Shown piece by piece: positions 1,054 to 19,815 of a stretch of DNA of 47,924 bases (positions are counted from its first letter, which is position 1; the number at the start of each line of letters is the position of its first letter). Under the pieces are notes generated by a model. That model did not search any database and was not told the origin of the DNA. It saw only the letters and a program-made list of their open reading frames with translations. The position numbers were made by a program, and so were the translations under genes. Source of the DNA: a virus; IMG/VR virus record IMGVR_UViG_3300047557_001921, positions 1-47,924 of that record; one strand, 5' to 3'.

Positions 1054-4000
1054 ATGGCTCTACGTGCGGTATCAACGCTACACACGCCGAAAGAATTTAA
1101 GCTCTCTCGCGATGAGCGCCTGACCGGCTTCCTTCCCCTTTACGAAGCTCGTTATCGCGAACACGTCAGCTTGGTGATCAACTCCCTCGTTTTGCAGGGC
1201 TTTCTGCCTATGGCGCGCAACGATCGGTTCCTCGCAGGCGTTAAGCGTCAGGTACTGAACGAGGTGCTAACGGCGCTCGTAGGGGATCTGAGGTCGAGGG
1301 CCAACAAGTCTATTCTGCGTCCCTCCTCCGACCCTAAGAAACCCGGGTATGACTTCGAGTTCGAGCTGGTGCCTGCGAGTACAGGAATGTTGCTCCTTAC
1401 GAAGAAAGGTCAGATTACCTTCCTGAGCTCGTGCGGCATCAAGATGTCGATGGCCGAAGAGGATAACTATCAAGAAGTAGATACTGTAGGGCTCGTGTTG
1501 ACAGGAGAAGATGTACGCAACAACTGTGTATCTCTAGGACCAGTACTTCGCAACTCCCTAGCCTCTTCGCTCAAATCTATGAGCGTAGACTCGGAAGGTA
1601 CTATTACCGTAACCATGCACCTGACCAAGCGCGAAGTCGAGTTCATGACGTCGACGCCGCTGATTGCTGTGCGTCCTGGCAACCTGTATGCCCTTCTGAG
1701 CCTTTGGGTGGCCTCCACTCTGGGTAACACTACCCGTATGCCGGTCGCCAGCATGTCGATCACGCATATCTCCAAAGCCGTAACTGCCGCTTCTGCGGGC
1801 AAAGATGTCGCGGCACGGAACAAGAACAACAGCATCGTGGTTTTGGAAGAAGGTGGTTTGGCGTACATCCCGGACGTCGACCAGTCTGCTCAGTACGAGC
1901 AAGCCTTGCACGACTACGGCATCCAGGAAGATGGAAGCTACTGCTTCTCTCCTCCTAAAGAGGCGCAAACCGAGTACAAGATAGGGCAAGAGTCTACCGG
2001 CAAGAAATTGCCTATCAACATGCCGATCCTTACGGACTGGGTGAACCTCAAGTTCGCCTACTCCAACACGGAAGGCAGGCTGGCTGTTCTAGACCTAGAC
2101 CGTAGTGTGAAGCTTCGGCCTACGCATGTGCGCCGATTCCTAGAGCTGAACATGACGAAAGGGAAAGGTGCAGCCTTCTTGAGCAAGATGGCGTTGCTCT
2201 TGCAGGTGTTCGGAATCAAGATTGCGCCTACTGCAGAGCAACTCTCCCAATACAATACCTCGATCGCAGACGTCAACGCCCTGGTAGCCTTACCTCTGGT
2301 AGACTACGTAGCCAAGATAGGCAGTCTGACGGTCAACCTGCGGCTGTCCGAAGAGTTGTCTGTAGAGGACGATCTCAAGCTGACCTTGATCCGTGAAGAC
2401 AGCGTCGTAGCCCCGTTCCGGGCTGTAGCAGAAGCCTTCAAGCAACTGCAGGCAGCGATCGAAGGCAACTTCGACAAAGCCTACCGCGCGGTGTCCGTGC
2501 TTTCGTTCATCGAACTCTTTGCAGGTCTGCGGCTCATCAATGCTTACGCCAAGGACTTCGACAAGGTCGTCCAGATTGACGTAGACCAGCGCAGCGTCTA
2601 CATCAAGCAAGGTGTAGACCCCGAGCATACCCCGGAGCCTTTGCCGTTCATGCGTAAAGGCAGCTTCATGCTGCCTCACCAGAAGAAGACCGAGAACCTG
2701 ATGCGGGGCAATCCTGCTTTCGCTATCTACTCTATCGATGCTGGCGGCGGCAAGTGCTTAACAGGGGAGAATGTGGTAGCCACTAAGCAGGGGCTCCTCA
2801 CCTTAGATGAAATGAGACTAATGTCTGGGTCTTGTGCAGGTGACAAAGGGTTCCGCTCTGCGGAATTCGACATAGTCTCCTCCTGGGGGATGCAGAAGAC
2901 CGACAGTACCTACCAGCGCAAAGGTAAGACGGTTCGGGTGAAGTTTTCGGATGGAACTATTGTGGAAGGTCTACCCGACCATCGATTCTGGGCGTACAAA
3001 TATTCAGAAGGGTTTCAGTACGTGCGGTTAGACAAGCTAACCGCAGATCACTTAATTGAGAAAAAGATAGGGTTAGGTTTATTTGGGACAAAGACTGACC
3101 TTACAGAATACAGACGTAAAGCTGCCTCTTCGCTCACAAGTAAAGCTAAGACCAACTTTGACAACTTGGGTAACTCCGTTCCTAGACACCTAACCGAAGA
3201 TCTAGCCCGGGTGTTGGGCTATCTAGTAGCTGAGGGTTATACCCCCTTAGATACCGAGGGGAGAAACCTTGCGGTTTTCCACAATAAAGACTCGGATGTA
3301 CTTAAGGACTACTCGGATAGCTTGTCTGCTCTGTTTGGGGAGAATTCGTACCGAATAAAGGCTGGTTCTAAGGGCCTAACCTCTGTGGAAATATCAGATA
3401 AGGCAACCCGAACCTTTATTCGGTCGTTGCTAACCTTAGGCACCTCGTCTTTCAAGGAAGTTCCTCTTTGTGTGCGGCAAGCCCCTAGAGAAATTCAAAC
3501 AGCGTTCCTCTCCTCATTATTTGAAGGGGACGGCACTATCTACTGGAAATCTATGGGGGTAGGCAAGGAAGATAGTAAGCACGCTACCTTAGCCTACACC
3601 ACTATTAGCTGGAGGCTAGCCTTGCAGGCAAAAGTGATGCTCGAGAACTTGGGCATACCAGCTACTATTAAAAGTAGAAAGGGGTACCTCAGCAGTAATG
3701 GTACTGACGGCACGGTAACGGAGCGTCGCCCTTACGAGGTTTGTGTCAACTACAGGTACCAAGACAAGTTTGCCGAGATCGGCTTCCGATCTTCTCGGAA
3801 GAAGGCCGCCTTAGCTGCGGCTATAGACTTGCTGGAAGATTCCCTATCCAACGAAGATAACCGCAATATTGAGAGTCGCGGCTCTTGGAACAAGCTGAAC
3901 TTGCGTCGCGAGTACTTGGATCTACTAGAAGAGACTGCGGATCTAATATCGGAGTGCAATATTGAGATCACCACTGCCCCGCAAGTCAGGCACTACGACT

Positions 4001-7000
4001 CTGGTATCGTTACAGAAGTGGCGGCTATCGTCCGTACTCAGCCTGCTCATATTAGGGCTATCTGGAAAGAAGCCTTAGCAGATTCAAAGGGGCCTAATTC
4101 CTACGGAAGGTGTGTTAAAGAAACAAAGCTGCCGTACGTGAGTCGCCTTAACATTGACTACCTGAGGCAGTTTGCGAAGCACTGTGCTCAAAGAACAGAC
4201 CAAATAGGGAAACTATTCCGTACGAGGCTGTCCCAAAAATACGATGAATTTTTCGGTATGGCCGACAAATTTTGGGTAAGGCCACTAGGGCGTAAAGAGG
4301 GGTCCTACCGAGACGTTTATGACTTGAGTGTGCCTGGACCTCATGACTACGTTGTTAATGGCATGATGTCCCACAATACGATGTTGGTTCTGACCAACGT
4401 GCTCAAGGAGCTCAAGCAAGGTCATTGCAAGCGCCCTATCATCCTGTGCCCCGGCCACTTGGTTCAAGGCTACATCAAGGATGCCGTGTATTTCACGGAA
4501 GGTAAGGTCAACATGATCCCGATTACTGCGTACTCCATTCGCCAGAATGGTTACGAGCGTATTCAGGAGATGATCAAGCGGGCGCCGCCTAACACTATCT
4601 TCGTCAGCGACTACGACTTCCTGAAACGCAGCAAGGAGCGGATCGCCTACGGCGTGCGCCCTGTGTTCGTGTTCCGTAACGTCGAGTTCCTGCGCCAGTT
4701 CAAGTTCGACTTGGTTGCCGCAGACGAGAGCCACTACCTCAAGAACGACTCGACTCGTTCGGAAGCAGCTCAGCGATTCATGGCTGAAATCCCTCGCAAG
4801 CGTCTGTGTTCGGGTACTATCGTTACCGATACTCCTATGGACATTGTGGCGCAAGCCTCCATTATGGATCCCTCCATATTCGGTTCGCGCGGAGACTTTG
4901 CCACAGACTACGCCCAGGAGATGAAGGGCGAGAAGGTTATGGTCTGGAAGGAAGGAGCAGGCCGCAACATTCGTGCTCAGCTGCAAGAGCATGTAGTGTG
5001 GGTGGACTGTCGGCGTAAAGAGTGGGCCACCTTGCTCCCTGATCCGGACGAGACTTTCCACGCGGTTGACCTGACGCCTAACCAGATGGCCTGCTACCAG
5101 TCGTTGCTGGAAAAGACCATGGACGACATCAAGAATGCAGCGGCGAAAGATCCGAAGCTGAAAGCGGCCTTGGATGCGGCGGAGGACGAGAACGTATTTG
5201 ACTCGCTGGCCGCCCTGTTGAAGCCTTACTTGTCTCGCCTTGAAAGTTTCTTGGCTGCGCCTGCCAAGGACAAGTTAGGTCAAGAGCTTCTGACTGAACC
5301 GTCGGATCGCATGAGTCCTAAGGTAGCGAAGATCATCGATCTGTGTCGCACTCACCTTAGCACAGGTATCAAGGGCAAGATCTTGATCTTCACCAACCAC
5401 ATTGCTGTGGCTGAGGAGATCTACAACTCTTTCCCGCCCGATCTCAAGAAGCAGGCTATTCACTACATTGCAGCAGAGAAGCTGGAGTGCGGTGCAGCGT
5501 TCGAGGGTGATGATCGCAAGACCATTATGGTAGGCGTAGAAAAATCCATGAACACGGGACTTAACCTGCAGTTTGCCAGCCGACTGATTCGGATCGAGAC
5601 GGTTTGGACCCCAGGCGAAATGGAGCAAGGTAACTCGCGTATCAATCGTCCTGAGCTCAAGAAGGAGGACGTTCGCGACAAGATCTACTTAGACTGGATC
5701 GTCTGTAACAAGACCTTCGACATCACTAAGGTGTCGCGCCTTGTATCCAAGATGATCCAGAAGGCCAAGTTCGATGAGCCGCACAACCCAGAGTTCCAGG
5801 CACTGACGGAACCTCCGATGATGGCGATGACGCTGAACAACATCATCGCGCAGAATGACTTTGCCCAGGAGCTGGCTCCTTATCTGGAGGCCTACCAGGA
5901 CTACAAGCAGGTCCTGTACACGGACTACAGGAACTACAGAGAAGAGCACAAGGACGAAATGGATCCTACTCTCTGGGTGCGTTCGGAGAACCTGCCTGGA
6001 TCTAAGCTGATGGCCCGTACACCGTACATTCCTGACATGGCCTTGTATGGCTCTGATCAGCTAGGTCTGCTGCGGTACGACGAGTACATGCGGATTGACC
6101 CGGACGACCTCGAGACCGAAGATGAAGGTGAGGACGAAGGAGACGACGAGGACGAGGCCGAGGACAATTCGTCGCGCGGTTCTGCCCAACGCCAGGCTAA
6201 CAGAGCAGAGCTGGCTAAGGTGGAGGGCTTAGGCGTTCACACGGAGTTCGGCGACGGCACCATCATCGGTTGCGGCAAGATTCGCCTCAAGATTCGGTTG
6301 GCGAACGGCGACGTTGTCCGTCCCCGGAAGCTGGCTTGCTACGTTATCACTCGCCGTGACACTTCGACTAAGGATATCCGCAAGCAGCTCTTGAAGATGT
6401 CTGGGGACATTCCGATCGACACGCCTATCGATGTGCCTGCCACTTCGATCAAATCTGGGTCACGCAGGGATCGCAAGGCTGTAGAGGATACCGAACCACC
6501 GGTTACCACTTCGGTGCAGGTGGAACTGTACCTCACTATCGTGAACGACTTCCTAGCCCTGGGTGTTCAGGACACGGAAGACCAGACCGCAGTAGGCGCC
6601 TTGTCCAAGTTCGGGTTCAGGCTTATCCCGGAGCACTACACCGCTCTTATCCGGACGCCGCAAGCCTTGTTGAAGCTCTACAAGGCATGGTCTGTCGCAG
6701 GCCTCAAGATGTACCGTGGTCCTACGATGCGCGCCAAGGAATTGTACGAGAAGGTGAAGAACAAGTCCAAGATGAACATTGTTGGCCTTGCTACCAAACT
6801 GTCTCTCCGCAACTTCCTCCTGATGGAGTACAAGGCATCCGGCGACACTAACGCTATTAAGCCTTACCCCATGCTTCGGGACGGCATGCTGTACGTTGGT
6901 CTGCCTAGGCGTAACCAAGCAGGTACGGCTGCGGCAATTCGAGTTGCGGTACCTACGGTGAAGTGGGTTGTGGCCGAGCCGGAAATGCTACGGTTCGTGG

Positions 7001-7146
7001 TTTCCAAGCAGGAGGTAGTCGAGGTCATCAAGTCCCTGATGGCTGCAGGTATCGAGGTCACCAATCTTGATGAACTCGGCAAAGTGTGGAAGAAGATTAG
7101 GGTCGTTCGGAATCCGGAAGCGGAAACCGAAGATTCCGACGAGTAA
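1054..7146 (+). CDS. SNF2-type superfamily 2 helicase, intein-containing precursor
   Basis: A 2030-residue precursor; removing the intein (residues 568-1108) leaves about 1489. A long N-terminal region (1-545) has no recognised motif. Walker A reads DAGGGK-T only after splicing. Motif Ia is near RPIILCPGHL, motif II is DESH (1224-1227), motif III is SGT (1253-1255). The second RecA-like domain has KILIFTNH and motif VI (QGNSRINRP, near 1525-1533), typical of SNF2 proteins. An acidic stretch near 1685-1710 precedes a C-terminal region of unknown role. The protein should use ATP to move on or remodel DNA or protein-DNA complexes; its target is unknown. AGGTGA lies before the ATG. It is far longer than most phage SNF2 proteins. 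Confidence 0.85.
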   Translation: MALRAVSTLHTPKEFKLSRDERLTGFLPLYEARYREHVSLVINSLVLQGFLPMARNDRFLAGVKRQVLNEVLTALVGDLRSRANKSILRPSSDPKKPGYDFEFELVPASTGMLLLTKKGQITFLSSCGIKMSMAEEDNYQEVDTVGLVLTGEDVRNNCVSLGPVLRNSLASSLKSMSVDSEGTITVTMHLTKREVEFMTSTPLIAVRPGNLYALLSLWVASTLGNTTRMPVASMSITHISKAVTAASAGKDVAARNKNNSIVVLEEGGLAYIPDVDQSAQYEQALHDYGIQEDGSYCFSPPKEAQTEYKIGQESTGKKLPINMPILTDWVNLKFAYSNTEGRLAVLDLDRSVKLRPTHVRRFLELNMTKGKGAAFLSKMALLLQVFGIKIAPTAEQLSQYNTSIADVNALVALPLVDYVAKIGSLTVNLRLSEELSVEDDLKLTLIREDSVVAPFRAVAEAFKQLQAAIEGNFDKAYRAVSVLSFIELFAGLRLINAYAKDFDKVVQIDVDQRSVYIKQGVDPEHTPEPLPFMRKGSFMLPHQKKTENLMRGNPAFAIYSIDAGGGKCLTGENVVATKQGLLTLDEMRLMSGSCAGDKGFRSAEFDIVSSWGMQKTDSTYQRKGKTVRVKFSDGTIVEGLPDHRFWAYKYSEGFQYVRLDKLTADHLIEKKIGLGLFGTKTDLTEYRRKAASSLTSKAKTNFDNLGNSVPRHLTEDLARVLGYLVAEGYTPLDTEGRNLAVFHNKDSDVLKDYSDSLSALFGENSYRIKAGSKGLTSVEISDKATRTFIRSLLTLGTSSFKEVPLCVRQAPREIQTAFLSSLFEGDGTIYWKSMGVGKEDSKHATLAYTTISWRLALQAKVMLENLGIPATIKSRKGYLSSNGTDGTVTERRPYEVCVNYRYQDKFAEIGFRSSRKKAALAAAIDLLEDSLSNEDNRNIESRGSWNKLNLRREYLDLLEETADLISECNIEITTAPQVRHYDSGIVTEVAAIVRTQPAHIRAIWKEALADSKGPNSYGRCVKETKLPYVSRLNIDYLRQFAKHCAQRTDQIGKLFRTRLSQKYDEFFGMADKFWVRPLGRKEGSYRDVYDLSVPGPHDYVVNGMMSHNTMLVLTNVLKELKQGHCKRPIILCPGHLVQGYIKDAVYFTEGKVNMIPITAYSIRQNGYERIQEMIKRAPPNTIFVSDYDFLKRSKERIAYGVRPVFVFRNVEFLRQFKFDLVAADESHYLKNDSTRSEAAQRFMAEIPRKRLCSGTIVTDTPMDIVAQASIMDPSIFGSRGDFATDYAQEMKGEKVMVWKEGAGRNIRAQLQEHVVWVDCRRKEWATLLPDPDETFHAVDLTPNQMACYQSLLEKTMDDIKNAAAKDPKLKAALDAAEDENVFDSLAALLKPYLSRLESFLAAPAKDKLGQELLTEPSDRMSPKVAKIIDLCRTHLSTGIKGKILIFTNHIAVAEEIYNSFPPDLKKQAIHYIAAEKLECGAAFEGDDRKTIMVGVEKSMNTGLNLQFASRLIRIETVWTPGEMEQGNSRINRPELKKEDVRDKIYLDWIVCNKTFDITKVSRLVSKMIQKAKFDEPHNPEFQALTEPPMMAMTLNNIIAQNDFAQELAPYLEAYQDYKQVLYTDYRNYREEHKDEMDPTLWVRSENLPGSKLMARTPYIPDMALYGSDQLGLLRYDEYMRIDPDDLETEDEGEDEGDDEDEAEDNSSRGSAQRQANRAELAKVEGLGVHTEFGDGTIIGCGKIRLKIRLANGDVVRPRKLACYVITRRDTSTKDIRKQLLKMSGDIPIDTPIDVPATSIKSGSRRDRKAVEDTEPPVTTSVQVELYLTIVNDFLALGVQDTEDQTAVGALSKFGFRLIPEHYTALIRTPQALLKLYKAWSVAGLKMYRGPTMRAKELYEKVKNKSKMNIVGLATKLSLRNFLLMEYKASGDTNAIKPYPMLRDGMLYVGLPRRNQAGTAAAIRVAVPTVKWVVAEPEMLRFVVSKQEVVEVIKSLMAAGIEVTNLDELGKVWKKIRVVRNPEAETEDSDE
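2755..4377 (+). mobile_element. Intein with LAGLIDADG homing endonuclease, in the helicase Walker A motif
   Basis: A 541-residue in-frame insertion beginning with Cys568 (CLTGENVVATKQGLL) and ending VVNGMMSHN (N1108), followed by Thr as the +1 extein residue. The endonuclease motifs are LGYLVAEGY and LSSLFEGDG, the two LAGLIDADG helices. Excision joins GGGK to TMLVLT and restores the ATP-binding loop, so the helicase should be inactive until spliced. Codons are more AT-rich (many tta, ata, aaa) than in flanking exteins, consistent with later acquisition. Intein calling is firm; endonuclease activity is inferred. Confidence 0.92.
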
Positions 7147-8278: not shown

Positions 8279-11179
8279 ATGTTTAATTCCAAATACTCTG
8301 TCCCTGTTAAATCCCGCAAGGACGACTTCGAGTTGACGCTGCCAGTTGACCGCAACTGGTACTCGGAAGACAGCCGTCTGCTTATCGTGCTGGAGTCGGT
8401 AGACGGCACTGACCTAAAGGCTGGCCGGCTACTGGCGGATCGTAGTAAGGTGGTGGTAGAGAACCTCTTGAACTTTGCGGCACAGCAAGCAGCCCTGATA
8501 GATGAGGGCTGCAAGCTGCCTGCTCTTGCGGCCATCAACTTCAACAATGCCCGCACGTTTCATCTGCAAACAGAGACGGAGAAGGTTCCTTACCACACAC
8601 GATTCGTTAGGCGGATATACGCCGCTATCAAGAAACTCAAGCCTACGCACCTGCTAATCTGCGGTGACGGGGCGATGCACCACCTATTCCCAGACGTGGC
8701 GAACAGCCAGTGGAAACGAGGCTGGGTACACAGGCTGACAGTAGGCGACCTTAAGCTTAAGGTTGTGTCGACGCTAGACCTAGAGCCCTTGTACGTACCT
8801 AAGCGTACCCTCAAGGAAGAGGATGACGATGGTGGCGACAACGAATTCGAGCGCGACGACTTCGGTAAGTGCAACCTTCTAGGCTACGTCATCAGGAACA
8901 TCTCGCACTGCCTGCTAGGTCGGCACCCTTTCTCTTTGCGAAAGGTTGTGCCTAAGCCCCACTACATCAACACCATTGAGAAGTTTGACCGCTTCTACGC
9001 CAAGCTAAAGACCTCAGCTTTGGTTGCCACGGATACGGAGACCAAGAATCTTTCGGCTACCAAGAATGCTATCTTCACCATTCAGTTCGCCTTTACGAAA
9101 GACGAAGGCTACGTAATTCCTCTGCACCATCCTCAGACGCCGTTCTCTTCGGAAGAGGTTCAGTACATCAGTAAGAAACTGGCTCGATGGTTCATTGCCG
9201 AGCCTGAGGATCACTTCATAGGCCTGTTGGCCTTCAACGGCAAGTTTGACCTACGAGTGATTCGAGCCCAGTTCAAGCTGCCTATTATCCTGCGCCCTGT
9301 ATGGGAGATATCTTCTGGCGAACACGAGCTGGACGAGAACATCAAGTTCCTAGAGGACTTCGGTACGCCGAACGGCAACCTCAGAGCTACCTTCACCAGC
9401 TACAACAATGACCTGTACTGGACGATGCCTTTCTCCAAGGAAGAGCGCGCCACTATTGCGTTCGTGAACCCTGGCGACAAAGACTTCCTGGACTACGCGG
9501 TCCTGGACGTGCAGAGTTTGATCGGCATGAGGGAGATGCAGCTGGCTAAGGCCAAGCTGATGCGGTTAGGTAACAAGTCCTTCTTGCCGTTTTACCGTAG
9601 TTTGGTGCTCCAGCAGATGAGCAACACGGTGCACACTATCTCGCACATGGAGCAACGAGGTGTGTTCATCGACGGCTACTACCTCGCGCACCTAAAGTCC
9701 AAGGGTTCCCCTCTAGTACAGTCCATAGCAGAGACTAAGCGCGAACTGTTCGCTATGCCTAGTGTGGTCAAGGCGAACCAACTGCTACTGCAAAAGAACG
9801 ATTCAGTATCCTACGCCAAAGGCGGCTTGTTCAACGCCTCTAGTTGGGTACTGAACCTGAACAAGCCCGAACACAAGATCGTGATGTTCTTGGACGTGAT
9901 GAAGCTGGAGCCTCTCACGAAAACCAAGACAGGCCAGCCTCAGATAGACAAGAACTTCCAGAAGGCCTACGCAGACAAGCATCGTGAGGTGAAGCTGTTT
10001 GCTACGTACCAGGAGACCACTAAGCTCTGGGGTACGTATGTGAAGGGCTGGTACCAGAAGATTAAGGACAGCCCGGACGGATCGTTCGACGGCAGGCTGC
10101 GTCCTAGTTACGGATTCTTCCGCGTGGTAACAGGTCGCTTGAACTCTCAAGACCCGTCCCTGCAGCAGGTGCCTAGCCGAGGTGGTCTAGCCAAGTATGT
10201 GAAGCGGGCGTTCGTGGCACCACCCGGTACGTTGTATGTAAAGTATGACTACTCGGCACATGAGGTTAGGTTCTGGGGCATCATCGCTAAGGACGACGTT
10301 ATCGCAGATACGTTCAAGATGGGGCAATCCTTACGGCGCAAGTATCGAATACTGAGCCAACAGGTAAACCTCTCTAAAGCGGCGGATTACAAGAGACTTG
10401 TTGAAGAATGGTTTACGTATAACCCTAAGACAGGGGATTTGATATGGAAAAAGAAAACAGGAAGAAGCACAAGCTTAGGGTCACCTGCAGGGTCTAAGCG
10501 CGACGACGGCATTTATGTAAAAATCGAAGGCAAAGGATATATAGCCCATAGGCTAATCTTTGCGTATCTGTACGGGTGGTTACCGGACGAGGTCGATCAC
10601 AAAGATCGAGACAGGTTTAACAATTCCAAAGATAACCTGAGACCAGCCACTCGAGAGCAGAATGCCCAGAACCGAGGTAAAGAGTTAGGCAAGAATCCCG
10701 TATCCCGCTACAAAGGTGTTTTTAAACATTCTCAGAATGGTAACTGGGTAGCCCAGATAAGACCAGGCAAAGGACTGCGAGTAAAACACCTAGGAAGTTT
10801 CGACACGGAAGAGGAAGCTCACAAAGCCTACGTAAGGGCAGCTAAGAAGTACCATAAGCAATTTGCTAATGACGGTGTGATCTCTCTAGCTACAGGTGAG
10901 GTGGATTGTACCAATCCTTTAGAGCTCCTTCAAAAAGAGTTGCGTCAAAAGGGCGACGTCCATATCATCAACATTTACCACTTCTTCAAGAAGTGGGTCG
11001 ACAAGTCTCACCCTTTGCGTGACGCCATTAAGGCTGTGGTGTTCGGCACTATTTACCAGATGAGAGCAAGCTCGCTGGCTAAGAGTTTGAGGAAGCAGCG
11101 AGTAGGAGAACTGGATGACAAGGTGCGTAAGATGCGTAAGCGTATTGCTGAGCTCAAAGCTGAGCTAGGAGTAGAGTGA
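8279..11179 (+). CDS. DNA polymerase family A, N-terminal part (3'-5' exonuclease, palm motif A, fingers motif B) with in-frame HNH-AP2 insertion
   Basis: 966 residues. The proofreading exonuclease shows DTET (D252, E254), LLAFNGKFD and YAVLDVQ, matching ExoI, II and III. Palm motif A is DYSAHEVR (D657, E662). Fingers motif B is RDAIKAVVFGTIYQ: R914, K918, F922 and Y926 match the O-helix, with Gln replacing the usual Gly after Tyr. Between motifs A and B lies an in-frame HNH-AP2 domain (about 691-870). The reading frame ends after motif B in a charged heptad-like helix (KVRKMRKRIAELKAEL). The C-terminal palm, with motif C, is in the next gene, joined by TGATG. The product therefore needs the second polypeptide to form an active polymerase. 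Confidence 0.9.
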   Translation: MFNSKYSVPVKSRKDDFELTLPVDRNWYSEDSRLLIVLESVDGTDLKAGRLLADRSKVVVENLLNFAAQQAALIDEGCKLPALAAINFNNARTFHLQTETEKVPYHTRFVRRIYAAIKKLKPTHLLICGDGAMHHLFPDVANSQWKRGWVHRLTVGDLKLKVVSTLDLEPLYVPKRTLKEEDDDGGDNEFERDDFGKCNLLGYVIRNISHCLLGRHPFSLRKVVPKPHYINTIEKFDRFYAKLKTSALVATDTETKNLSATKNAIFTIQFAFTKDEGYVIPLHHPQTPFSSEEVQYISKKLARWFIAEPEDHFIGLLAFNGKFDLRVIRAQFKLPIILRPVWEISSGEHELDENIKFLEDFGTPNGNLRATFTSYNNDLYWTMPFSKEERATIAFVNPGDKDFLDYAVLDVQSLIGMREMQLAKAKLMRLGNKSFLPFYRSLVLQQMSNTVHTISHMEQRGVFIDGYYLAHLKSKGSPLVQSIAETKRELFAMPSVVKANQLLLQKNDSVSYAKGGLFNASSWVLNLNKPEHKIVMFLDVMKLEPLTKTKTGQPQIDKNFQKAYADKHREVKLFATYQETTKLWGTYVKGWYQKIKDSPDGSFDGRLRPSYGFFRVVTGRLNSQDPSLQQVPSRGGLAKYVKRAFVAPPGTLYVKYDYSAHEVRFWGIIAKDDVIADTFKMGQSLRRKYRILSQQVNLSKAADYKRLVEEWFTYNPKTGDLIWKKKTGRSTSLGSPAGSKRDDGIYVKIEGKGYIAHRLIFAYLYGWLPDEVDHKDRDRFNNSKDNLRPATREQNAQNRGKELGKNPVSRYKGVFKHSQNGNWVAQIRPGKGLRVKHLGSFDTEEEAHKAYVRAAKKYHKQFANDGVISLATGEVDCTNPLELLQKELRQKGDVHIINIYHFFKKWVDKSHPLRDAIKAVVFGTIYQMRASSLAKSLRKQRVGELDDKVRKMRKRIAELKAELGVE
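10349..10888 (+). mobile_element. HNH-AP2 homing endonuclease-like insertion inside the polymerase gene (boundaries approximate)
   Basis: About 180 codons resemble phage HNH-AP2 endonucleases: FTYNPKTGDLIWKK and GYIAHRLIFAYLYGWLP, then the HNH core (VDHKDRDRFNNSKDNLRP), NAQNRG, and a C-terminal AP2 DNA-binding domain (SRYKGVFKHSQNGNWVAQI; HLGSFDTEEEAHKAY). The frame stays open from polymerase into the domain and out again. There is no Cys...His-Asn splicing signature, so it is not an intein, and too little non-coding sequence for a group I intron core. Exact edges cannot be set without an uninterrupted homolog; base composition shifts near 10346. Confidence 0.8.
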
Positions 11180-11994
11180 TGGCCGCCACCTTAGACAAGA
11201 AACGCAGAGCCGAGTTGACCGAAGAGCTAGCCAAGCTGAGAGCAGAGTTGCCCGCGGTCAAGGCTGAGCTGAAAGAGGCGCAAGAGCGGGACTGGAAGGT
11301 TTTCGCAGAAGACCTGATAGCGAAACTGTTTCATCGCTATGCCAAAGGCGCAGCGTGGCTAGACTGGGCCAAGAACTTTGCTGAGAAGAACGGGTACGTC
11401 TATGCGCCTACAGGACGTCGTCGCAATCTTCCTGGCGTAATGATCGGCAACAAATCCCTGGTGTCGGCACTGTTGCGGCGCGCGGTGAATTCACCTATTC
11501 AAGGTACAGCCTCTGACGTTACTGCGACGGCTGCTCGACTAACGGCCGTCCACTTCTACCGCTACCTACGCAAGTTCAAGATGCTAGAAGGCGTAGAGTT
11601 TCTGCCTGGTGAGGCACTGAAATTGGTGCATGACGCTACCTACGCGGAAGCCGCCTACGACCACATGCTGGCGTACCTGCACATCACGCAGTGGGTCGCA
11701 ACGTATGGCGTTACCGAATACTACGAGAAAGAGTTCGGCTTCAAATTCAACATCGAGCCTGAGATAGAGGTCGAGATCGGCGCCCAGGAAGACCACATGT
11801 ATAAGTGGGACTGGACGGACGAAGGCTTACGAAAGATAGTCCGTTCGTCCTTAGAAGACCAGGTCAAGATCAAGATGCTCAAGGAAGAAGATCTGGAAAG
11901 ATCCTTCAAACGCATATTCAGGATTTACCGTAACCCCGAGATCGCACAGTTTCTACGTACCAACTATCCTATCCTAGGAGTAGTAGATGAGTGA
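11179..11994 (+). CDS. DNA polymerase family A, C-terminal part (palm motif C)
   Basis: 271 residues from ATG 11179, which overlaps the preceding TGA by one base (TGATG); a GTG at 11176 is also possible. The N-terminus is a charged coiled-coil-like helix (KKRRAELTEELAKLRAEL). Then come YAPTGRRRNLPG, the conserved RRAVNSPIQGTASD, and palm motif C as VHDATY (D152); the Glu usual after Asp in VHDE is Ala here. This supplies the catalytic carboxylate missing from the first polypeptide. Reinitiation at TGATG suggests coupled translation. The frame is -1 relative to the first gene, but no slippery heptamer is visible at the join. Confidence 0.9.
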   Translation: MAATLDKKRRAELTEELAKLRAELPAVKAELKEAQERDWKVFAEDLIAKLFHRYAKGAAWLDWAKNFAEKNGYVYAPTGRRRNLPGVMIGNKSLVSALLRRAVNSPIQGTASDVTATAARLTAVHFYRYLRKFKMLEGVEFLPGEALKLVHDATYAEAAYDHMLAYLHITQWVATYGVTEYYEKEFGFKFNIEPEIEVEIGAQEDHMYKWDWTDEGLRKIVRSSLEDQVKIKMLKEEDLERSFKRIFRIYRNPEIAQFLRTNYPILGVVDE

Positions 11995-13863: not shown

Positions 13864-15345
13864 ATGGGCCTACGAGATTTCAAAACGAAAAAGAGCTTTG
13901 CTGACGCGAATGCTCGAGGCGGCCAGAGGCAGCCTGGGATGGGGGACTTGGTCGAAGTATTCAAGTTTCCTGACAAGAAGTGGATTACCTTGCGGTTCGT
14001 CGGGCCTCTTTGCTCGTACGGTAACCACTGGGTAGTCACCAAGAAGAAAGATGGCAGTCAGGGCAAGTTTCCTGCGCCTTGCTTGGCTTACGACTCTGCT
14101 ACTGAGAGTAGGGATGCCACTAAGGACTGCCCGTGGTGCAAGGAAGATCCGGAGATGGTTCAGTCCGGGTCAGACTATTTCACCAACGCCATCATCCGTT
14201 CGTTGCAAGAGAACGAGCCTCGGCGTAAGGCTAAGCCGACGGCAGAGGAGAGAAAGACGGGCTGGAAGGACAAGAATTCCGAGTCCTGGACTCCTGTCCG
14301 TGTAGTGAGGCTAACCGGCTCTGTTGTGCAAGAGCTCCAGCGGCTGAGTACGTTGAATCGCCACAAGGATAACAAGACCGGCGAGACGCGGACTTTCCCT
14401 ATCAGCCACATTACCAAAGGCGTCGACGTCAAGATCATGTACGACTCGACGGAGAAAACGCCTTCCAAGAAGTACACCATTCAGATACGCGAAACCCTTA
14501 CTCCTTTGTCTTCGGTGGAGAAAGAGTATCTGCTGTGGGACATCGAAGACCGCATCACCCTACCTAGTTTGTCAACCGTGATCAAGGAGCATGATATGTG
14601 GGCTACCCGCATGGGCCTCAAGAAGAAGCCGTCGTCCAAAGCAAAAGCTGGTAAAGAGAAGGACATCTTCGACGAAGACGAAGACTTCGACGAGGATGAC
14701 GAGGACGAGGAGGAGGATGACACTCCGAAGAAAAAGAAGGCCTCCAAGAAACCCGTCAAGAAGTCCAAGAAGCCCGTCGACGAAGACGAAGATGAGGACG
14801 AAGACGAGGATGAAGACGAGGATGAGGATGACGAGCCTCCTCGCAAGTCCAAGAAGAAGCCTGTAGCCAAGAAGAAGTCCAAGAAGCCCGTCGACGAAGA
14901 TGAGGACGAGGATGAAGATGAGGATGAAGATGAGGATGAAGATGAGGACGAGGATGAGGACGACGAGCCTCCTCGCAAGTCCAAGAAGAAGCCTGTAGCC
15001 AAGAAGAAGCCGGCTGCCAAGTCCAAGAAGAAGCCCGTCGACGAGGATGAAGACGACTTCGACGAAGACGAGGATGAAGACGAGGACGAGGATGAAGATG
15101 AGGACGACGAGCCTCCGAAGAAGTCCTCCAAGAAGAAGCCGGCTGCCAAGTCCAAGAAGAAGCCCGTCGACGAGGATGAAGACGACTTCGACGAAGACGA
15201 GGATGAAGACGAGGACGAGGATGAAGATGAGGACGAGGATGAGGACGAGGAAGAGGAAGACGAGGAGGATGACGAGCCTCCTCGTAAGAAGAAACCCGTC
15301 AAGAAGCCTGCAGCCAAGAAGCCTGTCAAGAAGTCCCGGCGGTAA
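13864..15345 (+). CDS. Putative ssDNA-binding protein with acidic/basic repeat tail
   Basis: 493 residues. Residues 1-260 form a globular part with a basic N-terminus (KTKKSFADANARGGQR) and four cysteines (C50, C73, C89, C92; CPWC) that could bind zinc as in T4 gp32-type proteins. Residues from about 265 on alternate Asp/Glu runs with Lys/Pro/Ala blocks (KKSKKPVDEDED) in at least four repeats, ending in a basic stretch. Acidic tails are typical of phage and bacterial ssDNA-binding proteins, where they recruit partners; this one is unusually long and ends basic. Neighbouring recombinase and polymerase genes support the call. Another ssDNA- or dsDNA-binding role is possible. Confidence 0.6.
   Translation: MGLRDFKTKKSFADANARGGQRQPGMGDLVEVFKFPDKKWITLRFVGPLCSYGNHWVVTKKKDGSQGKFPAPCLAYDSATESRDATKDCPWCKEDPEMVQSGSDYFTNAIIRSLQENEPRRKAKPTAEERKTGWKDKNSESWTPVRVVRLTGSVVQELQRLSTLNRHKDNKTGETRTFPISHITKGVDVKIMYDSTEKTPSKKYTIQIRETLTPLSSVEKEYLLWDIEDRITLPSLSTVIKEHDMWATRMGLKKKPSSKAKAGKEKDIFDEDEDFDEDDEDEEEDDTPKKKKASKKPVKKSKKPVDEDEDEDEDEDEDEDEDDEPPRKSKKKPVAKKKSKKPVDEDEDEDEDEDEDEDEDEDEDEDDEPPRKSKKKPVAKKKPAAKSKKKPVDEDEDDFDEDEDEDEDEDEDEDDEPPKKSSKKKPAAKSKKKPVDEDEDDFDEDEDEDEDEDEDEDEDEDEEEEDEEDDEPPRKKKPVKKPAAKKPVKKSRR
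14773..15290 (+). repeat. Tandem repeats encoding acidic/basic blocks
   Basis: Blocks beginning CCCGTCGACGA recur at 14773, 14887, 15034 and 15163, each running through GAC/GAG/GAT-rich DNA into a Lys-rich segment. The last two repeat units are 129 bases apart and nearly identical. Copy-number change by slippage or recombination would alter tail length without breaking the frame, since spacings are multiples of three (114, 147, 129). Confidence 0.85.
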
Positions 15346-15423: not shown

Positions 15424-16071
15424 ATGGCACAGTCTGCTCGTAAGGCAAACCCTGGTAAGAAAAAAGCGGTTCAGGAGGCAGTCGAAGACGCCTTTAATCC
15501 GTATGGCAACATAACAACCGTACTCGACCTGATCGAGAAAGAACTGGACATATCGGATGGTGGCCTAGTGCCTAATGAAGCCCGAATGTCCACAGGATTA
15601 TTGTGCCTAGACATTGTGCTAGGCGGAGGTATCACCGCAGGTTGGTACACCAACTTCGGGCAAGAGCAGTCCTGTAAGACAACCTTAGCGGTCAACATTC
15701 TCTTCTCGGCTCTGTTCAGCCGAATCCCTATCCTGGCCTACTGGGACTTTGAAGGTTGCTTAACCAAAGACTCCACGTTACGTCTTGAAGGTAATGAGGA
15801 CGTTAGTTTTGACCAACTGGCAAAGACGTACTCCGATGGAGACTCGGTGTCAGGTATATTGACCGTCGGCGGTGCTTCCTCTACCGGGACCTTCCGGGTT
15901 ATCCCGGACAAACCTTTGCACAGCATCAGGCTAGAAGATGGTACCTGTTTTAGGGGGTATAAACACCCCTTTTTAGTATGGGACCCTCTCACCGAGGATG
16001 CAGAGTGGGTTCTACTAGAAAATCTTAAGGTCGGTATGACCTTACTACAGTCATCACCTCTTCCGGGGTAG
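15424..16071 (+). CDS. RecA/UvsX-type recombinase, N-terminal part fused to split-intein N half
   Basis: 215 residues. Residues 1-111 are RecA-like: ARMSTGLLCLDIVLGGG, a Walker A-like loop GQEQSCKTT with Cys where Gly is usual, and YWDFEG carrying the catalytic Glu region. At Cys112 the sequence changes to an intein N-terminal half (CLTKDSTLRLEG; later TCFRGYKHPFLV), which ends at the stop. The remainder of RecA lies downstream (17425), so full-length protein requires protein trans-splicing. The stop codon is inside a strong inverted repeat and the 3' end overlaps the opposite-strand endonuclease gene by 47 bases. An AGGG lies before the ATG. Confidence 0.9.
   Translation: MAQSARKANPGKKKAVQEAVEDAFNPYGNITTVLDLIEKELDISDGGLVPNEARMSTGLLCLDIVLGGGITAGWYTNFGQEQSCKTTLAVNILFSALFSRIPILAYWDFEGCLTKDSTLRLEGNEDVSFDQLAKTYSDGDSVSGILTVGGASSTGTFRVIPDKPLHSIRLEDGTCFRGYKHPFLVWDPLTEDAEWVLLENLKVGMTLLQSSPLPG
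15757..16068 (+). mobile_element. Split intein, N-terminal half
   Basis: 104 residues starting at Cys112 with intein block A (CLTKDSTLRLEG) and a block B-like stretch (IRLEDGTCFRGYKHPFLV) containing the His of the splicing centre. No endonuclease domain. The partner C half is encoded at 17425-17586. The insertion site, right after DFEG, is at the RecA Walker-type catalytic Glu region, where inteins favour conserved residues. Confidence 0.88.
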
Positions 16072-17389
16072 TTAATCTAACTACCCCGACCTTAGGCAGT
16101 TGAAGGTATATCACAAAATTGCTTACGGTCTTGAATGCGGCCTTGAATTTAGCTAGGTTCTTTTCAATAAGGCCTCTGTTGAAAGGGACTAGCCCCATGG
16201 TGTAGAAACTCTTCACTTCTGCAACTTCTGCCTTACCTATAGGTGACACGTACTTGATATCCGGGTAGTACCTACGAGAAACTCCTTGGTACTCATAGGG
16301 TATTGTGACTATCTCTCTAGTTTCGGTAGTGAGATCCGTAACCTTGTATTGACGTAAAAGTTTCTCCACTACTTCGGCTTCCAGCTGAGATCTAACATCG
16401 TACGTCTTTTTCTTTACCGTAACAGGACGGAGTTTGTACCGAGATGATAAGACCTTTTCCATAATGTCAGCTACGTGAGTAGGATAGGATGTGCGTACCT
16501 GGTATCGCCAGTAGTAGGTCTCCTCCATCTTCCTGATGTACCAATCTAGTTCTCTCATGTTAGTGGTGCCGTACCTTTTGATGTAGGTCTCTTTAGTTTT
16601 TCTCGCTAGGGCGGCTAGTCCCCTATCATAGGTACCGTACTCGTCCGTTAAGTTTCTTTTTCGAGATGCGACTGCTTTAGCGGCGATACTAGGCACTCTC
16701 ATTGCGTTACTCACATCTGTTTGATATCTAGCCTGCAAAGTCTTTATGCCTTTTAGGTGCCTACGAGCCCGTTCTTCTGTTGATACTTGTCCTGCGAGCT
16801 CCTTCACACTTTCCATCTTGAAAGGATTGTCTACTCCGTATTTCGCCAACCATGTCTCTTTCTTTTTCTGGAGTACGGCTTTGTTTCTAGATATATTGGT
16901 TACGCCGTACCTATCGACCAGAGTCTGCACACTTTTGCGTCTCACCTCATAACTTTGTTGAGGGAAATCTACCCCATAATTCCTGCGACAGGTTTGAATC
17001 TTCTTTTCTCTCGCCCCTTCGATGTGTGAAGGGTTGGTTACTCCGTACTTATCTAGTAAAGCTTTACGGATAGACTGCTTTACTTTAGGGTCTCGTAGGG
17101 AGCATCCTCTTTGAGCATACTGCGAGTATCGTTTGCCTACGAACAGAGTAGGTCTGCCACACCCGCAGCAACACAGGTGTTTATTGGGGTCCCTTAGAGT
17201 TAGCGCGTCGTAGGCAGCTTGAGCTAAAGGAGCTCCTTGGCGTAGTCTCTTCTTGAGAAGCTGTCTGTGTCTTCTATTAGGTAACTCTTGTATAGCCCTA
17301 ATGATACTTTTCAAGTAAAGCCGGCGGCCACCTCTGTAAATAGATTTAGGTAAAACCTTTTGTGCAACTGTGTTTAGATCAGTCTTCAT
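16025..17389 (-). CDS. Free-standing homing endonuclease, PD-(D/E)XK/Vsr-like, in the fractured RecA locus
   Basis: 454 residues, the only minus-strand gene in the window. A strong ribosome site (AGGAAGG) precedes the ATG. Features: a Cys cluster (CCCGCG, residues 73-78), then tandem modules with a KYGVTNP-type core (near 114, 138, 161, 183, 273), a repeat seen in phage homing endonucleases, and a C-terminal nuclease core YYPDIKYV...AEVKS (D377, E391, K393). It lies between the two RecA halves, an arrangement known as a fractured gene, where a stand-alone endonuclease spreads with a split intein. It should cut an intact recA allele near the insertion site; specificity is not shown by sequence. 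Codon use is AT-richer than in neighbours. Confidence 0.85.
   Translation of the reverse strand: MKTDLNTVAQKVLPKSIYRGGRRLYLKSIIRAIQELPNRRHRQLLKKRLRQGAPLAQAAYDALTLRDPNKHLCCCGCGRPTLFVGKRYSQYAQRGCSLRDPKVKQSIRKALLDKYGVTNPSHIEGAREKKIQTCRRNYGVDFPQQSYEVRRKSVQTLVDRYGVTNISRNKAVLQKKKETWLAKYGVDNPFKMESVKELAGQVSTEERARRHLKGIKTLQARYQTDVSNAMRVPSIAAKAVASRKRNLTDEYGTYDRGLAALARKTKETYIKRYGTTNMRELDWYIRKMEETYYWRYQVRTSYPTHVADIMEKVLSSRYKLRPVTVKKKTYDVRSQLEAEVVEKLLRQYKVTDLTTETREIVTIPYEYQGVSRRYYPDIKYVSPIGKAEVAEVKSFYTMGLVPFNRGLIEKNLAKFKAAFKTVSNFVIYLQLPKVGVVRLTTPEEVMTVVRSYRP
16026..16094. other. Nested inverted repeats at the fracture boundary
   Basis: Three overlapping pairings: TAAGGTC(16026-16032)/GACCTTA(16038-16044); GGGGTAGTTA(16065-16074)/TAACTACCCC(16078-16087), a perfect 10-base stem with a 3-base loop; and TAAGGTCGG(16026-16034)/CCGACCTTA(16086-16094). 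They contain the stop codons of both convergent genes (IntN and the endonuclease). No T-run follows on either strand. It may be a bidirectional transcription or RNA-stability signal, or a recombination scar. Confidence 0.7.
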
Positions 17390-17403
17390 TTCAACCTTCC
17401 TGT

Positions 17404-17415
17404 GATTAGCTAATC
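17404..17415. promoter_or_regulatory. 12-base palindrome between divergent genes
   Basis: GATTAGCTAATC is a perfect palindrome in the 35-base gap between the divergent endonuclease (minus) and the IntC-RecA gene (plus). It could be an operator or dimeric protein-binding site controlling one or both; no direct evidence. Confidence 0.45.
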
Positions 17416-17424
17416 GGAGTCCTT

Positions 17425-17586
17425 ATGAAATTACTGAAAGCGGATTTAGCCAAGCTAGGCTTAACCCCTATTGAAGTTGTAGCTAGTGCGCCCACAGGCA
17501 CACGGGAGACCGTTTACGATGTATCGTTGCCGGGGACGGAACTGGTGCCCCACAGCATTATCACTAATGGTATCGTCACTCACAAC
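17425..17586 (+). mobile_element. Split intein, C-terminal half
   Basis: 54 residues ending GIVTHN, with block F (ETVYDVSLPG) and block G (the penultimate His and terminal Asn). Followed by Ser, the +1 nucleophile. It matches the N half at 15757-16068; together they lack an endonuclease domain, which here is replaced by the separate minus-strand gene. Confidence 0.9.
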
Positions 17587-19815
17587 TCGGCAAGTCCTGA
17601 ATACTACGAAACGATCATGCGTAAGGTGACACGCAGATTGTTTACTAGCATCAGTGAAGTGTTCGGCGAAAAGGACAACAAAGGCCAGTGGGTTCACCCG
17701 CCCGTTATTCGCTATCGCTCTGAGGCTGTAGCCGAGAAGTTCTTCGACTTCCTGGCGTCGATCGAACGCAAGCTTCCAGACAAGAAACTACTCGGAGACC
17801 AGTGGTACTACGTCTACGAAGATACTAAACCTAACCGGGCCATCGTCAAGGACAAGTTCGACAAGTCTTATTTCTCCAAGACTGGCAAGTTGCGCGTACC
17901 TGCACCTGACGGCTCTTTGCAGGCCATTGTCCTGGTTGACTCGTACCCGGCGATGCTCCCAGAGAAGCAGGACGTCGACGATCCTAACAACGCTATCGCT
18001 ATGCAAGCCCGGATGTTCTCTGACCAGCTCAAGCGGGTTAAGGGCAGAATGCGCGGCAAGAGGATCGCGGTGTTCGGCATCAATCAGCTTAGGCTGAAAC
18101 CTATGGTCATGTTCGGCTGCCTGCACGGCTCCGCTCGGGTGGTCCTGGCTGACGGTAGTACGATGTTGATGGAAGACATCGTGCAAAACAAGATTAAAGG
18201 GCCGGTTATGTCGTACAACCCGGTCACTAAGAAAGTTGAGCCTAAAGCCATCAAGCGTTGGTTTAACAATGGCCACACAGATGATTGGCTTCAATTCAAG
18301 TTGGGGGGAGTAGACACCGCTAATGGACTAACCAGTCTTAGGTGTACCCCCAACCATTTGTTGATGAGTGGCAAAGGTAAACTCAAGAGGGCGAAGTCCT
18401 TTAAAGACGGCGACACCTTGATGTTAACCAGTTTGAAGCCTGCCTTAAATGAGGTTCAGCGCCAGGTAATACTAGGGTCTATTCTGGGCGACGGTTGGTT
18501 CAAGGTCAAGAACCGAGGTTTTGGTGTTAGAGGCGGTTTCGCTCACAAAGAGGCAGATTCCAGTTATGTGGAATACAAAGCCAACTTGCTGGGGTCTTAC
18601 GGACAACCCGCCTACGGGGGGAAAATGCTAACCGTAGAGACGTGCATGATGCACGAACCTTGGCTAACACAGATTGTAAAAACCGCAAAGGGGAAAGGGC
18701 GAAAGTACCATTTCTGCAAAGAGCTATTCGAGAAGATTGAGCCTTTAGGTCTAGCTATCTGGCTAATGGATGATGGCGCACGTTCAGGTAAACCTGGAGT
18801 AGGGACCTTGTCGTACAGCCTAGAGGACACTCGGAAAATATCTCGAGCATTGAACAGAAAGTTTGGCACCAAGTGCCGAGTCAAAGTTCATAGAGACAAA
18901 TATGCTCCTACAGGATATGGGTATGGGGTGCAGTTCTGTGAAAAAATGATGGCGTTGATAGCCCCGTATTTATATGAACCGTTCTACGAAGGGTTTACCA
19001 CTAAGCACAGAGATTTGCCGGGATTCGCCTCCGCTAAAGTAACGCCCTTGCCTCCAGGGGACAGATTTACTTATCCTGCGGTGATACGTTCTATCACTCC
19101 TGGGGCACCTACCCAGAGCGTTAATGGTCGGCTGATAGGTAATACCAAGTACGACCTAGAGATAGAAGGTAATCACTTGTACGTGGTTAACGGAGCCGTT
19201 GTCCATAATTCTCCGGAGTACGAGCCGGCCGGAGAAGCCCTCAAGCTCTATTCGGACGTGCGGCTCAAGTGCACCTCGCGGGCTATCTCTGCGGTGGATG
19301 GTGCTAAGGGCAAAGGTCAAATCGAACTGGAGCCGTCCTTGACTGGCGATGGCGATGACGAGTACCGCTATGTCCACATCAGGGCGCATAAGAACAAGCT
19401 GAGTGTGCCTTACCTAGAGTGCTTCCTGCGCTTGTGGATCAAAGACGTTGATGGTGTCGCTCAGGGTTTTGACCTGGTCTACGACACGTATGAGTACCTG
19501 CGGTCTACAGGTCAAGCCACAGGTAACCGTAAGGCCATCCACATCCACTTGCACGGTCAGGAGAAACCTTTCCGCAGGCCTCTTCCTTGGAGCGTCTTCA
19601 AGACTCTTATCTTAGGTGACAAGCCTAAGATCAAGTCCATCTTCACTAAGCTAGGGCTAAAGCCGATGATGCTGCGTACCTTCTGCGAAAAGCAAATGAA
19701 GTCCGGGAAAGGGTTGGACCTCTACTTTGCTCACCAGAAGGCTGCGAAGAAGGCGGCTATCGCCAAGAAGAAAGCTAACCCGGATGCGGACGACGAAGGC
19801 GGCAGTGAGGAGTAA
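17425..19815 (+). CDS. Split-intein C half fused to RecA/UvsX central and C-terminal parts, with a second intein
   Basis: 796 residues. Residues 1-54 are an intein C half (VYDVSLPGTELV...GIVTHN) followed by Ser55 as +1 extein. Residues 55-231 continue RecA (SPEYYETI; AIVLVDSYPAM; INQLRLKPMVMFG). A second intein occupies 232-595. Residues 596-796 resume with SPEYEPAGEALKLYSDVRL, matching the RecA motif after INQ-R-K-G-V-M-F-G, then a lysine-rich C-terminus. Extein total with the N part is about 489 residues, longer than E. coli RecA. The product should form filaments on ssDNA and drive strand exchange after one trans and one cis splice. A GGAG-like site precedes the ATG. Confidence 0.92.
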   Translation: MKLLKADLAKLGLTPIEVVASAPTGTRETVYDVSLPGTELVPHSIITNGIVTHNSASPEYYETIMRKVTRRLFTSISEVFGEKDNKGQWVHPPVIRYRSEAVAEKFFDFLASIERKLPDKKLLGDQWYYVYEDTKPNRAIVKDKFDKSYFSKTGKLRVPAPDGSLQAIVLVDSYPAMLPEKQDVDDPNNAIAMQARMFSDQLKRVKGRMRGKRIAVFGINQLRLKPMVMFGCLHGSARVVLADGSTMLMEDIVQNKIKGPVMSYNPVTKKVEPKAIKRWFNNGHTDDWLQFKLGGVDTANGLTSLRCTPNHLLMSGKGKLKRAKSFKDGDTLMLTSLKPALNEVQRQVILGSILGDGWFKVKNRGFGVRGGFAHKEADSSYVEYKANLLGSYGQPAYGGKMLTVETCMMHEPWLTQIVKTAKGKGRKYHFCKELFEKIEPLGLAIWLMDDGARSGKPGVGTLSYSLEDTRKISRALNRKFGTKCRVKVHRDKYAPTGYGYGVQFCEKMMALIAPYLYEPFYEGFTTKHRDLPGFASAKVTPLPPGDRFTYPAVIRSITPGAPTQSVNGRLIGNTKYDLEIEGNHLYVVNGAVVHNSPEYEPAGEALKLYSDVRLKCTSRAISAVDGAKGKGQIELEPSLTGDGDDEYRYVHIRAHKNKLSVPYLECFLRLWIKDVDGVAQGFDLVYDTYEYLRSTGQATGNRKAIHIHLHGQEKPFRRPLPWSVFKTLILGDKPKIKSIFTKLGLKPMMLRTFCEKQMKSGKGLDLYFAHQKAAKKAAIAKKKANPDADDEGGSEE
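18118..19209 (+). mobile_element. Second intein in RecA, LAGLIDADG type
   Basis: 364 residues from Cys232 (CLHGSARVVLADGSTMLMEDI) to N595 (YVVNGAVVHN), +1 Ser. LAGLIDADG-like motifs are ILGSILGDGW and LAIWLMDDGA. It interrupts MFG/SPE near the DNA-binding loop 2 region of RecA. Splicing restores GSPEYEPAGEAL. A contiguous cis-splicing intein in a gene also dependent on a trans-splicing one is rare. Confidence 0.93.

Follow-up and report, generated by a model that had tools for sequence, protein, structure and literature searches.

A phage family A DNA polymerase encoded by two overlapping genes and cut within a hairpin between the O and P helices

DNA polymerases encoded by two genes are already known in phages. 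The family A polymerase of the OM43 phages MEP401 and MEP402 is split over two genes with an open reading frame (ORF) between them (PMC10580990), and T4-like gene 43 is split into 43A and 43B in phages 44RR and 25, while the split NrdA of Aeh1 has been reported as active (PMC2988022). Here, we report a family A DNA polymerase encoded by two overlapping genes (genes 1 and 2) in IMG/VR virus record IMGVR_UViG_3300047557_001921, a metagenomic contig of 47,924 bases that was analyzed over its whole length (the window). The polymerase is cut within a helical hairpin between its O and P helices, and the same cut was found in four other environmental phage contigs.

The window and MEP401/MEP402 both have two-gene family A polymerases, but their cut sites differ: we mapped the MEP401 cut before motif A, so that its second gene holds motif A as well as motifs B and C, and no hairpin lies at the cut. 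The original prediction, made from the window sequence, had called a natural two-subunit family A polymerase unusual; MEP401 is a precedent for the two-gene state, though with its cut at a different place. Like the window genes, 43A/43B and Aeh1 NrdA are essential phage replication enzymes in two adjacent pieces that need reassembly, but they are a family B polymerase and a reductase, and their splits are tied to mobile or untranslated insertions, not to a hairpin. Polymerases of BcepSauron, BcepSaruman, and related jumbo phages (annotated as DNA polymerase I) belong to the same family A subfamily and have the same O-P hairpin, but consist of one uncut chain without the HNH insertion described below. 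In DNA polymerase theta, insert 1 belongs to the thumb, whereas the palm holds inserts 2 and 3 (PMC9962433); these inserts were not taken as the same insertion as the O-P hairpin. A literature search that reached few subscription journals found no description of an O-P hairpin cut or of its recurrence at a pre-existing hairpin.

Genes 1 and 2 lie side by side, each matches a different part of a single known polymerase, and the two jointly encode one family A DNA polymerase (PF00476). The Pfam DNA_pol_A profile is shared out between them (gene 1 covers profile positions 30-187 and gene 2 covers 237-313, both above the curated cut-off), and the DNA_pol_A_exo1 match falls in gene 1. In order, gene 1 contains the exonuclease, thumb, motif A, an embedded HNH domain, motif B on the O helix (fitting the family A pattern R-x3-K-x3-F-x3-Y), and the first coiled-coil arm; gene 2 contains the second arm, followed by the P helix through to motif C and the C-terminus. 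ORFs, Pfam, and alignments confirmed the originally predicted distribution of the exonuclease and motifs A and B to the first gene and of motif C (VHD) to the second, joined by TGATG; the same account of gene 1 had missed the embedded HNH and AP2 endonuclease. All catalytic residues for exonuclease and polymerase are retained across the two genes, so the pair is predicted to have both activities. Family A catalysis needs the motif A and motif C aspartates together. With the former in gene 1 and the latter in gene 2, polymerization should therefore need both chains.

The break marks a genuine boundary between genes. A Shine-Dalgarno sequence equal in quality and form to the signals of neighboring genes precedes gene 2, whose frame is closed upstream by a TGA (11161-11163). 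The overlap of the two frames is therefore only ~15 nt (11164-11179), and the arrangement suggests translational coupling. One base miscalled near 11161-11181 could break a single-chain hairpin polymerase in this way, the halves overlapping by few bases in a metagenomic contig and single-chain hairpin relatives being known, but such a sequencing or assembly error is exceedingly improbable in view of the Shine-Dalgarno sequence, a hairpin exceeding almost every single-chain one in length, and four other contigs split at the same place, two of them with genes between the halves. The overlap and -1 offset of the frames are also what programmed -1 ribosomal frameshifting would require to fuse them, at least part of the time; we give this very little credence, as the overlap is so short and no slippery heptamer (X-XXY-YYZ) was seen within it. 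Because the frame offset is opposite in contig L035, and genes lie between the halves in L021 and L033, there is no common frameshift mechanism for the family. Taken together, sequencing error or frameshifting, either of which would have refuted the original prediction, is very unlikely. A Pfam search for intein blocks at the gene 1 and gene 2 ends had no match at the break; it can be trusted because inteins in the helicase and UvsX genes of the same window do score, and a split intein or trans-splicing at the break was rejected.

Relatives were gathered by tblastn and alignment (jumbo-phage polymerases of BcepSauron, Motura, PaBG, Erwinia Y3, and others, with ~30 distinct IMG/VR contigs). Gene 2 alone as a query against viral contigs returned no relative, and alignments were needed to find them; searches for the C-terminal half in bacterial and archaeal genome contigs returned no relative, and those for nearer relatives of the window returned no new contig. 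A tree was built from 41 rows after removal of the hairpin and HNH segments. Single-chain homologues with the hairpin, which the original prediction had proposed to seek, account for 22 of these 41 polymerases, BcepSauron among them: they are uncut here and carry an insertion of 34-49 residues (83 in one) exactly at the break site.

The BcepSauron polymerase (sequence from IMG/VR) was modeled with AlphaFold2 (mean predicted local distance difference test score [pLDDT], 90; predicted template modeling score [pTM], 0.88), and the model has a Pol I fold (best matches Klenow/Bst; Foldseek E, 1.7e-24; VIA Z, ~30). In it, the O helix (727-740) is followed by a helix (754-772), a five-residue turn, and a second helix (778-800) before the next polymerase helices; the turn makes the two helices antiparallel if they pack, and the model places this hairpin exactly at the window's break. 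The distance separating motif B and N[SA]PIQG is 78 residues in forms without the insert (83 in the outgroup phages PaBG and Y3), 112-127 in single-chain hairpin forms (161 in L028), and 136-147 in all five split forms. The arms are therefore longer when cut, and those of the split forms exceed all single-chain forms but one. Both ends at the window's break have chains of 3-4-spaced hydrophobic residues (7 at the end of gene 1 and 6 at the start of gene 2); chains this long occur in 0.02% and 0.1% of shuffled sequences, respectively. Gene 1 modeled alone (AlphaFold2) ends in a 34-residue helix (930-963), its palm/fingers part being poorly predicted without gene 2. The charged heptad-like helices noted in the original prediction are thus present, and its proposal that an antiparallel O-P hairpin insertion was cut at its tip is supported by the single-chain insert at the break, the BcepSauron helix-turn-helix model, and the four contigs with the same cut.

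Those four contigs differ in how their halves are arranged. In L014 they are adjacent, with stop and start overlapping as TAATG; in L035 they are adjacent, with stop and start two bases apart. In L021 they are separated by a gene for a 337-amino-acid protein without known family, and in L033 by two small genes. On the tree, four changes are required to account for the split state, and well-supported branches force all of them, with independent events in the window, in L021, in L033, and in the ancestor of L014 and L035; placing all splits in one clade was rejected (p-AU, 1.8e-7; 1.7e-5 with the window left out). The cut therefore arose independently at least four times. Trees of the N-terminal and C-terminal halves each need four changes and place the split rows alike, from which it follows that the halves travel together. 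As the split rows stand among single-chain rows, with single-chain outgroups, fission is favored over fusion. In L014 and L035, the proportion of nonsynonymous differences (pN) is 0.17-0.19 in both halves against a saturated synonymous proportion (pS) of 0.84-0.90, so purifying selection acts after the split in this pair. The hairpin itself also needs four changes; counts of changes alone do not give the direction of gain versus loss, and the simplest reading, though not proven, is that the hairpin was present before the splits and was later lost in Motura, L111, and the L009/L010/L149 group.

Three further contigs were left out of the split count: L026 and L145, which are cut by contig ends, and L017, which begins 575 bases upstream of its C-half gene. 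That gene (L017, 576-1478) has a hairpin arm and, directly upstream, an unrelated gene that is KilA-N-like by eye; no N half was found in the 66.8-kb L017 contig. In L030 and L031 (2085-6696), a related polymerase has an intein start in the exonuclease region and two ORFs ~1 kb apart, which may be a split intein.

The window thus very probably encodes a replicative family A polymerase of jumbo-phage type, made as two polypeptides cut within the hairpin, that reassembles by pairing of the arms. The polymerase of this phage clade bears an inserted hairpin of two helices between its O and P helices. In the window lineage the gene would have been broken inside this hairpin, where TGATG and the Shine-Dalgarno sequence of gene 2 now end one chain and start the next. 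Coupled translation would then make both chains side by side, and the former hairpin arms may pair as an intermolecular antiparallel coiled coil that holds the halves together. The palm and fingers interface would re-form to give one shared active site, with the motif A aspartate and O helix from subunit 1 and the motif C aspartate from subunit 2, and neither subunit alone could polymerize.

Several observations weigh against this assembly. Docking by a coiled coil is read from a sequence pattern and a single-chain model. Some split arms have a weak heptad pattern (P = 0.32 for the L033 C arm; P = 0.05-0.08 for the L014, L035, and L021 N arms), and by the shuffle test the short single-chain hairpins of L012 and L148 have none. 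The embedded HNH domain may also account for the poor prediction of the gene 1 palm, and the nearest relatives of the window are only ~48% identical. The halves might instead reassemble through the normal core interface, with the charged helices as incidental remnants, given that enzymes in two pieces can come together with no added docking parts (a functional split NrdA is reported for Aeh1 [PMC2988022]) and that some arms have weak heptads. We consider this unlikely, since the cut falls within the hairpin in each of the four lineages, with arms longer than all but one single-chain form, and the window arms carry 7 and 6 consecutive 3-4-spaced hydrophobic residues.

Table 1. Features of the two-gene polymerase in the window
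Feature	Position	Strand	Basis
Gene 1, N-terminal polymerase subunit, 966 amino acids	8279..11179	+	ORF; Pfam DNA_pol_A and exo1; homologue alignment
Predicted 3'-5' exonuclease active-site residues D252/E254, D324, Y406/D410	9032..9508	+	Invariant columns in 25 homologues
Motif A (YDYSAHEVRF), catalytic D657	10241..10270	+	Homologue alignment
In-frame HNH_3 + AP2 homing endonuclease domain, ~189 amino acids, residues ~691-879	~10349..10915	+	Pfam, phrog_99, homologue alignment; limits approximate
Motif B (RDAIKAVVFGTIY), O helix; R914/K918/F922/Y926	11018..11056	+	Homologue alignment
First hairpin arm, gene 1 C-terminal helix, residues 930-963	11066..11167	+	Heptad test; AlphaFold2 gene 1 model
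Shine-Dalgarno AGGAG of gene 2	11167..11171	+	7 nt before gene 2 ATG
TGATG stop/start overlap (putative translational coupling)	11177..11181	+	Sequence
Gene 2, C-terminal polymerase subunit, 271 amino acids	11179..11994	+	Pfam DNA_pol_A 237-313; homologue alignments
Second hairpin arm, gene 2 residues ~5-38	11191..11292	+	Heptad test; alignment with single-chain hairpins
NSPIQG motif, gene 2 residues 104-109, conserved Asn/Gln of palm	11488..11505	+	Invariant in homologue alignments
Motif C (VHD), H151-D152, catalytic D152	11626..11634	+	Invariant in homologue alignments

The endonuclease insertion of gene 1 (Pfam HNH_3, 755-797, and AP2, 809-859; phrog_99, 704-876) lies between motifs A and B, and other homologues align without it. 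The single-chain polymerase of L093 (7881-11639, 1,252 amino acids) has the same endonuclease domain, in frame and at the same site. In L027 (2418-6714), a stand-alone gene for a DUF7487/homing endonuclease interrupts the polymerase there, so that three genes lie side by side with stop/start overlap; L107 and L136 show the same arrangement between motifs A and B. SPO1/Bastille-type phages likewise have HNH homing endonucleases within their DNA polymerase genes, but these sit in spliced group I introns (PMC11878797), whereas that of the window is in frame. RNA splicing of the segment is still conceivable, although neither an intron nor any other RNA element matched in Rfam (gathering or relaxed threshold) and the insert is almost wholly coding in the frame of both flanks, which leaves little room for an intron core. 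In our reading, the polymerase probably holds the homing endonuclease as one of its domains, in a loop between the two motifs that tolerates insertion.

Other replication genes of the window are also invaded. A SNF2-type helicase (1054-7146) carries a LAGLIDADG intein, and UvsX (15424-19812) looks like a fractured gene: an N-terminal part with an N-terminal intein piece (15424-16071), a DUF7487 endonuclease on the opposite strand (16025-17389), and a third piece (17425-19812) with a C-terminal intein piece and UvsX containing a second LAGLIDADG intein. Between them, a 493-amino-acid protein (13864-15345) has a C-terminal half of long DEDEDE runs alternating with KKKP stretches; its place and look suggest a candidate single-strand binding protein whose acidic tail is unusually long.

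No family B polymerase matched in the window record or in eight related records (split and single-chain, up to 263 kb), the only DnaE-type match in these was one weak and partial (in the L148 record), and no second family A polymerase was found in the records beyond a weak sub-threshold fragment in that of L098. The split enzyme is therefore probably the main replicase; against this, the window is a 48-kb fragment, and a second polymerase could lie elsewhere in its genome. With replication genes so heavily invaded, and an in-frame HNH endonuclease in gene 1 itself, the pair might be a decaying relic broken by mobile elements, but this is highly improbable: the exonuclease and polymerase catalytic residues are all kept, the L014/L035 split pair is under purifying selection, and the large contigs that carry split genes showed no further polymerase of family A, family B, or DnaE type.

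For the family as a whole, we lean towards the view that the hairpin was a pre-adapted breaking point whose arms became an intermolecular clasp, yielding an obligate two-subunit replicase at least four times, with subunit genes that drifted apart in some phages. The group would offer a natural experiment, run several times over, on the passage from a one-chain to a two-subunit enzyme, in which the docking hairpin apparently predates the cut and is longer afterwards. A family A polymerase with its two catalytic aspartates on different proteins could find use as a split enzyme of natural origin that might be controllable, and annotation pipelines will mistake such gene pairs for broken polymerases.
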